From an uncultured Tateyamaria sp. (GTDB lineage Bacteria > Pseudomonadota > Alphaproteobacteria > Rhodobacterales > Rhodobacteraceae): 64,000 bases of DNA. The stretch covers positions 1-64,000 of the forward strand of contig NZ_CANNGP010000001.1 of assembly GCF_947504105.1 (NCBI RefSeq), read 5' to 3'. Positions 27,293 through 32,061 of the stretch are shown in pieces. Within the stretch, counting starts at the first letter, position 1, and the number at the start of each line of letters is the position of its first letter. The notes beneath the pieces were generated by a model that was not told the origin of the DNA, did no database searches, and saw only the letters and a list, made by a program, of their open reading frames with translations. The position numbers and the translations under genes are program-made.

Positions 27293-28039
27293 ATGAACAC
27301 GCCTTTTGATCCAGAAACGCCGCGGCCACCCGGTTTGTTTTCAAGAGTGCGCGCATCGTTCCTGACAGGTCTTGTGGTGATTGCGCCGGTTGGCCTTACC
27401 ATCTGGTTGATCTGGACCGTCATTGGGTGGATCGACGGGTTTGTCTGGCCGCTGGTACCAAGCGCGTGGCAACCGGATGCAATCGTCAACTATTGGCTGA
27501 ACAACCCGCGCATCATCGATCAGAACGGCGCGCGTGTGCCAAACCCGGACTGGATCCACGTGAACGTGCGCGGTGTGGGCGTGATCGTGTTTCTTTTGTT
27601 CACGGTCTTCATCGGTTGGATCGCCAAGGGCTACATCGGACGGTCGCTGATCCGCTATGCGGAAAGCCTGGTGGAACGAACGCCGGTTGTCCGATCGATC
27701 TATTCCGGGATCAAACAGATTTCGGAGACGATCTTTGCCCAGTCCGAGCGGTCTTTTGAAAAGGCGTGCCTGATCGAGTACCCGCGCAAGGGAATCTGGG
27801 CCATCGGTTTCATCTCGACCACGGCCAAGGGCGAAGTCAGCGAACGGGCCGGAAACACTGGCGCACTGCTCAGCATCTTTGTTCCCACGACGCCAAACCC
27901 GACATCGGGCTTTCTGCTGTTTCTTCCGGCCGAAGACGTGATTGAGTTGGACATGTCGGTTGAAGATGCCGCGAAACTGGTGATCTCTGCCGGGCTGGTC
28001 TATCCCAACGGCAAAGATCCCACCAAACCGCCCAAGTGA
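27293..28039 (+). CDS. DUF502-family membrane protein
   Basis: A 248-residue protein with two transmembrane helices (about 21-45 and 95-115) and a cytosolic or periplasmic domain carrying the DUF502 motifs TPVVRSIYSGIKQISETIF and PTTPNPTSGFLLFLP. The family is widespread and unassigned; plant relatives (LCV/COV1) affect vascular patterning, which tells little about bacteria. The start has only a weak GGGA ribosome site. The convergent patatin gene ends 16 bp beyond. Confidence 0.9.
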   Translation: MNTPFDPETPRPPGLFSRVRASFLTGLVVIAPVGLTIWLIWTVIGWIDGFVWPLVPSAWQPDAIVNYWLNNPRIIDQNGARVPNPDWIHVNVRGVGVIVFLLFTVFIGWIAKGYIGRSLIRYAESLVERTPVVRSIYSGIKQISETIFAQSERSFEKACLIEYPRKGIWAIGFISTTAKGEVSERAGNTGALLSIFVPTTPNPTSGFLLFLPAEDVIELDMSVEDAAKLVISAGLVYPNGKDPTKPPK

Positions 28040-29159: not shown

Positions 29160-29945
29160 TCAGAGCGCCGTCCAACCCCCGTCGACACTGATGGTCGTGC
29201 CTGTGATTTGATCCGCCGCAGGTGAACATAGAAAGACTGCAGTGCCGCCCATCTGTTCGGTCGTTGCGAATTCCTTGGAGGGCTGACGCTTGAGCATGAC
29301 GTTCTTGATCACCTCTTCGCGCCCCATGTCGTATTCTTTCATCGTGTCGGGGATCTGGCTTTCGACCAGCGGCGTCAGCACATAGCCTGGGCAAATGGCA
29401 TTGGCGGTGATCGGCTCTTCAGCCGTTTCCAGTGCCGTGGTCTTGGTCAGGCCGACAACACCGTGTTTGGCGGCGATGTAGGCCGACTTGTACGGCGATG
29501 CCGTCAACCCGTGGGCCGAGCTGACATTGATGACCCGGCCCCAGCCAGCGGCACGCATCATCGGCAGGGCCGCGGCTGTGGCATGAAAGGCAGAGCTGAG
29601 GTTGATGGCAATGATGGCATCCCATTTCTCGACCGGGAAATCGGGAATGCCTGCCACGTGCTGAATACCTGCGTTGTTGATCAGGATATCACATGCGCCC
29701 GCCTCTTCGATCAGGGCGCGGCATTGATCACCCTTGGACATGTCCGCCTGAATGTAGCGTGCGTTTGTTCCGGTCCCATCCGCGATTTCCTTGGCTAGCG
29801 CGTGATCCTCGGCCCGGTCCGTGAAAGAATTCAAAACCACATCCGCCCCGGCGCGCGCCAGCTCCCACGCCATCCCGAGGCCGATGCCCGAATTCGAACC
29901 GGTGATGACAGCCGTTTTACCGGTCAGGGAAATCTCAAAAGCCAT
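29160..29945 (-). CDS. bdhA: 3-hydroxybutyrate dehydrogenase
   Basis: A 261-residue short-chain dehydrogenase. It has the cofactor loop TGSNSGIGLG, the catalytic Ser-Tyr-Lys set in NVSSAHGLTASPYKSAYIAAKHG, and the long C-terminal substrate loop seen in D-3-hydroxybutyrate dehydrogenases (ICPGYVLTPLVESQIPD). It oxidises 3-hydroxybutyrate to acetoacetate with NAD. The start is the ATG at 29945, preceded by AAAGGAT. Its 5' leader may contain an intrinsic terminator about 95 nt before the start codon (see the candidate sRNA), which would make its expression attenuated or would separate a small RNA gene from it. Confidence 0.9.
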   Translation of the reverse strand: MAFEISLTGKTAVITGSNSGIGLGMAWELARAGADVVLNSFTDRAEDHALAKEIADGTGTNARYIQADMSKGDQCRALIEEAGACDILINNAGIQHVAGIPDFPVEKWDAIIAINLSSAFHATAAALPMMRAAGWGRVINVSSAHGLTASPYKSAYIAAKHGVVGLTKTTALETAEEPITANAICPGYVLTPLVESQIPDTMKEYDMGREEVIKNVMLKRQPSKEFATTEQMGGTAVFLCSPAADQITGTTISVDGGWTAL

Positions 29946-30037: not shown

Positions 30038-30066
30038 AAAAAAAACGCCAGCACGAAGCTGGCGTT
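30038..30066 (-). terminator. Strong intrinsic terminator
   Basis: Read on the minus strand: AACGCCAGC, loop TTCGT, GCTGGCGTT, then a total run of eight T at 30045-30038. It is a textbook Rho-independent terminator, yet no protein gene on the minus strand ends here. Confidence 0.85.
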
Positions 30067-30113
30067 AAGTTATTGAGGCAGGTTTCATACAGGCAAGAAA
30101 CCTATCGAGCAGT
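30038..30113 (-). ncRNA. Candidate small RNA or transcription attenuator upstream of bdhA
   Basis: On the minus strand a promoter-like pair (30120-30149) would start a transcript near 30113. The transcript folds into a hairpin with 7-bp arms AGGTTTC/GAAACCT (30080-30103) and a second hairpin (30044-30066) followed by eight T. This is the form of a free-standing sRNA of about 75 nt. It could equally be a leader whose terminator gates bdhA, 95 nt downstream on the same strand. I do not recognise an RNA family. Confidence 0.55.
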
Positions 30114-30119
30114 GACCTC

Positions 30120-30149
30120 GTTATACGCAAATCCGCCCGAAGAGTCCAA
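30120..30149 (-). promoter_or_regulatory. Sigma-70-type promoter on the minus strand
   Basis: TTGGAC (30149-30144), an 18-bp spacer and TATAAC (30125-30120), with a predicted start about 7 nt further at 30113. It would drive the candidate sRNA and possibly bdhA. Confidence 0.55.
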
Positions 30150-30189
30150 GCTAAAAGTTTGATAATGCGTAAATGTCCAAGGGCCGCTA

Positions 30190-30228: not shown

Positions 30229-32061
30229 ATGAGCAGGCATTTTTTCCAAATTGGACGCACCAAAATCAAAGGTGCCGGCGTGATTCTTGCGAGCCTAGTA
30301 TCACTTGCCGCCACGGCACAAGCAGAGCCAAGCCATGGCATAGCTATGTATGGCGACCCTGCCCTTCCACCGGATTTTGTGGCCCTTCCGCACGCAAACC
30401 CCGATGCCACCAAGGGTGGTGCCATCACGCTGGCCAACACTGGCAGCTTTGATTCGCTCAATCCCTACATTCAAAAGGGCAACGTGCCCTGGCAGCTGCG
30501 CTTTCTGACCCATGAAAGCCTGATGGGTCGCAGCCGAAACGAACCGTTTGCCCTTTACGGGTTGCTCGCCGAATCGATTGAGACGGACCAGGACCGGTCC
30601 TGGGTCGAATTCACCCTACGCGAAGAGGCGCAGTTTTCGGACGGCAGCCCCGTGACGGTCGAGGATGTGCTGTGGTCCTATGAAAAGCTCGGCACCGAAG
30701 GGCACGGTCGCTATCGTAGCCTGTGGACGCAGATCGAAAGCCTTGAACAAACCGGCCCGCGCAGCATCCGCTTCACCTTCAACACGGAAAACCGGGAACT
30801 GGCCCTGCTCGCCGGGATGCGTCCGATCCTTCAAAAGGCGCAGTGGGAGGGCAAAGATTTTGCCAATTCAACGATCAACGACGTGCCCATCGGCTCCGGC
30901 CCCTATGTGGTCAGCGGTTATGAGGGGTCACGCTATGTCACGCTGACCCGCAACCCGGACTACTGGGGCAACGACCTGAACTTCCGCCGTGGCACATTCA
31001 ACTTTGATGAGATCAAAATTGATTTCTACGGCGATGGCGATGTGGTGCTGGAGGCCTTTAAGGCAGGTGACATTTCTGCATGGCGTGAGTTCAATGCCGA
31101 AACCTGGAACAGCGAGTATGACTTCCCGCGCGTCCAATCCGGTAATGTCATCAAGACCGAGATCACCCACCAGAAGCCGTCAGGCATCACCGGCTTTGTC
31201 ATGAACACCCGCCGCGCACCCTTTGATGACTGGCGGGTGCGCGAGGCCCTGATCACCGCCTTCAACTTCGAATACATCAACGACACGCTGACCGGCGGCG
31301 CACAGCCCCGCATCACCTCCTACTTCTCGAACTCGCTACTCGCGATGGAGCCGGGCGCCGCCAAGGGCCGCGTCGCAGAGCTTCTTGCCCCGTTCAACGG
31401 CAAACTGCTACCCGGCGTCATGGAAGGCTACGCCCTGCCCGAAAGCGACGGCACCCTGCGCAACCGCAGGGCCTTGCGACGTGCCATCGGCCTGCTGGAA
31501 GAGGCCGGCTGGACAACACAAGAAGGCAAGCTGCGCAACTCTGACGGTCAGGCGATGCGTTTTACTATCCTGCTGGACCAACAACGGACCGAGGACCGGG
31601 CGATTGCCAACCTCTACATCCAGGCATTGGAGCAGCTTGGCATTGACGTCACCGTTGACCTTGTGGACGGCGCTCAGTTCACGGCACGCGAAGACAGTTT
31701 CGACTTCGACATGACCTACATCCGCCGCGCCCTGTCGCTGAGCCCCGGCAATGAACAATGGTTCTATTGGGGAACCGACGCGGCGGTCGAGGACGGCTCC
31801 GGCAACCTGATGGGTGTGCAGGACCCGGCCATCGACGCCATGATCACCGCCATGCTGACCGCCACAACGCGTGAGGACAGCATTGCAGCCACGCGCGCGC
31901 TCGACAGGTTGCTGACCGCCGGGCGCTACGTCGTACCGTTCTGGCAATTCACGACCGGCCGCATCGCTCATGTCTCAGAAATGAAACACCCCGATGTGAT
32001 CCCTCTTTATGGAGACGGGCCGGACTGGATGCCCCAGTTCTGGTGGTGGGACGCGAACTGA
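30229..32061 (+). CDS. Periplasmic solute-binding protein, peptide/YejA type (family 5)
   Basis: A 610-residue extracellular substrate-binding protein with signal peptide ending in ATAQA-EPSHG. It is of the SBP_bac_5 type that feeds oligopeptide or microcin-C/YejABEF-like ABC transporters (NPDATKGGAITLANTGSFDSLNPY, FSDGSPVTVEDVLWSYEKL, GSGPYVVSGYEGSRYVTLTRNPDYWG). The ATG at 30229 was chosen over a TTG at 30190 because the latter prefixes the signal peptide with extra charged residues. No permease or ATPase follows: the next gene is an aquaporin 15 bp downstream, so the transporter it serves is encoded elsewhere. Confidence 0.9.
   Translation: MSRHFFQIGRTKIKGAGVILASLVSLAATAQAEPSHGIAMYGDPALPPDFVALPHANPDATKGGAITLANTGSFDSLNPYIQKGNVPWQLRFLTHESLMGRSRNEPFALYGLLAESIETDQDRSWVEFTLREEAQFSDGSPVTVEDVLWSYEKLGTEGHGRYRSLWTQIESLEQTGPRSIRFTFNTENRELALLAGMRPILQKAQWEGKDFANSTINDVPIGSGPYVVSGYEGSRYVTLTRNPDYWGNDLNFRRGTFNFDEIKIDFYGDGDVVLEAFKAGDISAWREFNAETWNSEYDFPRVQSGNVIKTEITHQKPSGITGFVMNTRRAPFDDWRVREALITAFNFEYINDTLTGGAQPRITSYFSNSLLAMEPGAAKGRVAELLAPFNGKLLPGVMEGYALPESDGTLRNRRALRRAIGLLEEAGWTTQEGKLRNSDGQAMRFTILLDQQRTEDRAIANLYIQALEQLGIDVTVDLVDGAQFTAREDSFDFDMTYIRRALSLSPGNEQWFYWGTDAAVEDGSGNLMGVQDPAIDAMITAMLTATTREDSIAATRALDRLLTAGRYVVPFWQFTTGRIAHVSEMKHPDVIPLYGDGPDWMPQFWWWDAN

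Follow-up and report, generated by a model that had tools for sequence, protein, structure and literature searches.

A conserved small RNA gene upstream of bdhA in Rhodobacteraceae is probably an orthologue of StsR

The locus and its features

We analyzed a stretch of 64,000 nucleotides (hereafter, the window) from the genome of an uncultured Tateyamaria species of the family Rhodobacteraceae. A small RNA (sRNA) gene lies on its minus strand, between a 3-hydroxybutyrate dehydrogenase gene (bdhA) and a divergently transcribed gene for a solute-binding protein. The features of the locus are:

29160–29942, minus strand: bdhA, 3-hydroxybutyrate dehydrogenase (TIGR01963, synteny), a frequent downstream neighbour outside the sRNA unit
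30038–30113, minus strand: sRNA gene of 76 nt with the whole T run included, A30113 being the inferred start (probable StsR orthologue)
30044–30066, minus strand: intrinsic terminator stem-loop CGCCAGC-UUCGU-GCUGGCG (terminator scan; covarying stem)
30079–30104, minus strand: hairpin 1, nucleotides 10–35 of the sRNA, with the 10-nt loop UUGCCUGUAU at nucleotides 18–27 (folding; invariant in 23 aligned variants)
30120–30125, minus strand: -10 element TATAAC (TATAAA or TATAAC in 121 of 153 distinct upstream sequences)
30144–30149, minus strand: -35 element TTGGAC (TTGG in 134 of the 153)
30151–30161, minus strand: conserved box CAAACTTTTAG, directly 5' of the -35 element (alignment)
30229–32061, plus strand: divergent family-5 solute-binding protein gene (PF00496), the neighbour most consistently found beside the sRNA

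Read along the minus strand, the sequence runs from CTTGGAC through an 18-nt spacer to TATAAC, then ACTGCTCG, a hairpin with arms AGGTTTC/GAAACCT, the terminator and eight T (30045–30038). The RNA likely starts at A30113, the A of ACTGCTCG. The promoter (TTGGAC-N18-TATAAC) thus reads as the original prediction had claimed, and the sequence also agrees with its 76-nt RNA made of two hairpins, the second a terminator followed by eight T. The predicted fold of this RNA has an energy of -24.8 kcal/mol, versus -12.4 kcal/mol for shuffled sequences (z = -5.6; none of 200 shuffles was as good). No protein gene terminates at the site, the upstream gene being divergent, and 95 nt separate the end of the sRNA from the ATG of bdhA (29942), both as predicted. 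The identity of bdhA was likewise upheld (TIGR01963, 351 bits, cut-off 307); its closest homologue, 94% identical, is from an uncultured Tateyamaria.

Generic scans performed near chance: under the stricter rule, no promoters were found versus 0.8 expected, and two terminators were found versus 2.6 expected by chance. The scan alone is therefore uninformative, and it is conservation that settles the reality of the gene. Among the 153 distinct upstream sequences, the spacer between the -35 and -10 elements measures 17 or 18 nt in 141, and seven have no TAT in the searched stretch. Together with the CTTG that follows it, the box CAAACTTTTAG forms an imperfect dyad, kept upstream of the -35 element in many members. 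The box is almost single-copy across 13 genomes of the genus; an UP element or a binding site for some regulator are candidate readings.

Distribution and conservation of the sRNA

Using BLASTN, we found the sRNA in 37 of 61 genomes: that of the window, each of the 19 congeners and each of the 17 further family members drawn. None of the 24 genomes from outside the family had it. A covariance model built from 23 sRNA variants, the search in relatives that had been suggested along with the original prediction, identified it in 294 of 296 Rhodobacteraceae genomes (293 of 295 genera); 290 of the 294 gave one match each. The model did not find it in G164 and G183, and a repeat search of these two was again negative; both assemblies are fragmented, into 310 and 370 contigs, and their best homologues of the solute-binding protein are 37–38% identical. 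A draw of 144 genomes from the whole class gave seven matches: three strong ones (106–108 bits), all in family members, and four of 30–34 bits outside the family, which we take as chance. One genome (G296) has, besides the normal sRNA, a diverged second version of it (G296:C15:38106-38179; 55.5 bits) at a distance of about 1.7 kb.

The first 40 nt of the sRNA were located, allowing up to eight mismatches, in 161 of 169 scanned loci, and are identical in 156 of these 161. Among the eight loci not counted, two have their match near the locus end (L037 and L293, the latter reading as identical), two carry an sRNA altered by an insertion or deletion (L290 and L311), and four are bdhA loci without the sRNA (L041, L049, L050 and L064). 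Across variants, the sRNA measures about 73–77 nt with the T run included. The terminator is supported by covariation, with three pairs altered on both sides and pairing maintained among the 23 variants. Hairpin 1 is invariant in the same set, so that covariation speaks neither for nor against it.

Phages gave no match to the sRNA, viral contigs contained no exact copy of the 40-mer, and the only plasmid matches were to four Paracoccus plasmids of 1.5–2.2 Mb; an origin from phages or plasmids was rejected on these grounds. The feature is a genuine stand-alone sRNA gene.

Relationship to the neighbouring genes

The divergent solute-binding protein gene adjoins the sRNA in 30/30 loci of one set (set A), in 29/30 of another (set C), and in 22/27 loci of a further set, picked mostly because their sRNAs had diverged. 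bdhA was scored as present from 55% identity upwards, a threshold that a strongly diverged copy could fail to reach. It lies within 1.5 kb downstream in 22/30 loci of set A (one match being partial, with a computed spacing of -291) and in 22/30 of set C. It is absent in 16 of the 60 loci fetched with the sRNA. In the 27-locus set it is present in 15 and absent in 12, one locus (L312) covering only 856 nt downstream. The gene order solute-binding protein, sRNA, 3-hydroxybutyrate dehydrogenase is also found in Paracoccus ferrooxidans.

The original prediction had left two readings side by side, an intergenic sRNA or a leader with regulated termination that governs read-through into bdhA. Conservation bears out the former. 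The latter draws on position, since bdhA lies on the same strand 95 nt downstream with a terminator in between; in addition, among the best 80 loci selected by bdhA, the sRNA lies upstream on the same strand in 76 by nhmmer and in 75 by the 40-mer scan. Against this stand the loci that lack bdhA and a spacer to bdhA that ranges from 29 nt to 1.9 kb. Moreover, three congeners (L015, L016 and L017) lack the bdhA block at this position and retain the sRNA and its terminator unchanged: there the sRNA adjoins a convergent gene that in the window (27293–28039) lies beyond bdhA and a further gene, patatin-like by its motifs. Finally, no mutually exclusive antiterminator was found in the aligned variants. 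The arms of the terminator covary while the upstream 40 nt remain constant in the same variants, and no conserved antiterminator using those arms would fit. We therefore regard an attenuator of bdhA as very unlikely.

Direct pairing with the adjacent genes fared no better. The predicted duplex between the sRNA and the start region of bdhA (-23.4 kcal/mol) is weaker than the median of -25.2 kcal/mol over 118 mechanically called ORF starts of the window. For the solute-binding protein the value is -30.9 kcal/mol, and neither start is among the best eight of the 118; both were rejected as direct targets. Another set of computed duplex energies allowed long gapped duplexes, its shuffled sequences reaching about -28 to -35 kcal/mol, and we relied on exact sites in its place. 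A proposed role in hydroxybutyrate use thus found no backing, as nothing was found that links the two. The placement of the sRNA before bdhA looks incidental, a common gene order and not a sign of bdhA regulation.

Complementarity to the mraZ leader

The dcw cell-division cluster begins with mraZ. Two segments of the sRNA are complementary to the leader of this gene:

30078–30095, minus strand: nucleotides 19–36 of the sRNA, complementary over 18 nt without a mismatch to GCAGGTTTCATACAGGCA of the mraZ/dcw leader, the counterpart of UpsM
30106–30112, minus strand: nucleotides 2–8 of the sRNA (CUGCUCG), complementary to CGAGCAG of the same leader and a possible second contact

The window genome and all 12 congeners examined have the 18-nt site GCAGGTTTCATACAGGCA in their mraZ leaders. 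Its 12-nt core, TTCATACAGGCA, was found with at most one mismatch in the mraZ leader of 42 out of 53 other genera, whereas permuted cores matched in 0.08 of the same 53 genera on average and never in more than 2. These genera combine 28 from a first draw (loci were returned for 30 of the 41 genomes drawn), where the core is kept in 25, with 25 from a list mainly chosen for diverged sRNAs, where it is kept in 17. In the 36 genomes with both found, the core lies 106–239 nt upstream of the MraZ N-terminal motif. Of the 42 other genera retaining the core, 29 also have CGAGCAG no more than 100 nt downstream of the first site, as do 12 of 13 genomes from the window's own genus. By a count made by eye, about 215 of 296 genomes have at least two 18-nt sites (up to two mismatches), 80 have one and one has none; this count includes the sRNA gene itself, and extra sites were counted genome-wide, not only before mraZ. 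The reversed control pattern matched in 5 of the 296.

In the predicted fold of the sRNA, nucleotides 2–7 and the loop (18–27) are unpaired and nucleotides 28–35 lie in the stem, so the remainder of the 18-nt duplex would require opening of that stem. The predicted leader fold of the window genome leaves CATACA in the first site largely unpaired and CGAGCAG about half open. We also observed that the mraZ leader (L149, G000:C19) contains a long, strongly conserved block in many genera (GAGATCCGGCGCG...GAGCGAGCAGACATCCCCCCAGGTGGCGCGCGC), more than the sRNA contacts account for.

The core was not found within one mismatch in 11 of the 53 genera, in one of which (G036) the leader is cut by a contig end. 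Of the ten with uncut leaders, four have a changed sRNA; the other six (G068, G093, G120, G217, G301 and G323) have an identical 40-mer and no recognisable core before mraZ. Loss of the core was seen in 4/6 genomes with a changed sRNA versus 6/45 with an unchanged one (Fisher test, p = 0.01, a rough value that ignores phylogeny). This comparison omits G036 and also G164, where the sRNA was not found, and six of the 45 unchanged sRNAs (G065, G066, G076, G077, G078 and G080) were not read directly. In the genera lacking the core, either the leaders pair differently or UpsM alone fails to explain the invariance of the sRNA.

Identity of the sRNA

In Rhodobacter sphaeroides, StsR (RSs0827) is described as a 72-nt, Hfq-associated sRNA under the control of RpoHI/RpoHII and as the RNA most highly induced in late stationary phase; it pairs with UpsM and the dcw 5'UTR, promotes RNase E cleavage and retards growth (PMC8307010, PMC11354728). 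UpsM is the terminated leader of mraZ, and its regions R2–R4 are reported to be conserved in Rhodobacteraceae (PMC5089854). The leader matched by the window sRNA is therefore the published target of StsR, which makes the window sRNA very probably its orthologue. Both RNAs measure about 72–77 nt, have their own promoter, belong to Rhodobacteraceae and are complementary to the UpsM/dcw 5'UTR. UpsM itself takes part in the same regulatory circuit, but as the target, and its coding site is the dcw cluster (G000:C19). To judge from sequence, we assign a probability of about 0.88 to the window sRNA being a StsR orthologue that stands alone and acts in trans on the dcw leader.

The conserved TTGG-N17/18-TATAA fits only loosely the TTG/TAT described for the RpoHI/HII promoter (PMC10673084) and is not diagnostic. 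A difference concerns rpoE, since the pairing reported for R. sphaeroides, close to the start codon of the rpoE mRNA, was not recognised for the window sRNA, no common site emerging among 30 rpoE regions from 30 genomes searched without a control. As to Hfq, which had been said to be encoded in the window, we did recognise a frame near 49.4 kb that by its motifs is presumably this gene.

The assignment to StsR rests on target, size, family and promoter, and not on an alignment with the StsR sequence; as a family could in principle have two sRNAs that bind UpsM, a new sRNA other than StsR might pair with the same leader. We consider this unlikely, since nearly all positive genomes hold a single match, and size, family range, promoter type and target all agree with StsR. 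Even less credible is membership in the alphaR8/MmgR family, with an effect on polyhydroxybutyrate granules. The window sRNA shares with this alphaproteobacterial family the size class and the arrangement of a 5' hairpin and a terminator, has a sub-threshold match to RF00519, and sits at a place where a link to hydroxybutyrate is tempting. That match, though, scores 21.8 bits against a gathering score of 41, and the family core, given as UUUCCUCCCU in the part available of PMC12559287, is absent from 30113–30038. Furthermore, five genomes of Rhodobacteraceae (G020, G023, G027, G034 and G036) have over-threshold alphaR8 genes elsewhere and also carry the window sRNA, which together with the missing core led us to reject this membership. 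Other Rfam families likewise gave only sub-threshold matches at the site, among them BjrC1505 (RF02356), whose weak overall resemblance (28.5 bits, gathering score 50) leaves many stem pairs of the model unmatched.

A separate sub-threshold match to RF00519 (33.2 bits), alphaR8-like, was seen in the window's own genome (G000:C26:49195-49275), and weak matches to this model also occur in some congeners. Either of two conserved sRNAs of 80–84 nt described in Paracoccus denitrificans, "intergenic 134" and "intergenic 60" (PMC5107571), might correspond to the window sRNA, and no entry in the accessible part of the Ruegeria pomeroyi tables (PMC4809877) was matched to the window sRNA. Family-wide conservation of StsR beside bdhA is not stated in the portions of the literature found, a body that does not extend to the key 2021 paper.

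Proposed action and significance

For the StsR orthologue proposed here, expression, sigma-factor control, Hfq binding, RNase E cleavage and the effect on division are modelled on R. sphaeroides. Under stress and in stationary phase, RpoHI and RpoHII would induce the sRNA. In association with Hfq, it would pair with UpsM and the dcw 5'UTR through the 18 nt and possibly the 7-nt second contact. Pairing would refold both RNAs and expose them to RNase E; dcw expression would then fall and growth would slow, the sRNA acting as a brake on division.

The 40-mer is identical even where the core is unrecognisable, which suggests further partners, and these are also to be expected from the hairpin 1 pairs, which show no compensatory change. 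A tentative reading, which we hold somewhat less probable than not, is that StsR is a family-wide hub coupling stress to division, its body frozen by partners beyond UpsM; in that case one or more additional near-universal RNA or protein partners should exist.

The locus cautions against inferring function from a neighbouring gene, here bdhA. Across many genera, the sRNA co-occurs with a site that matches it ahead of the division cluster, so that control of cell division by StsR under stress was probably ancestral in Rhodobacteraceae. An observation made in the laboratory with one species would thereby become a rule that can be tested throughout an entire family of ecological importance, and the surplus invariance of the sRNA points to partners still to be discovered.
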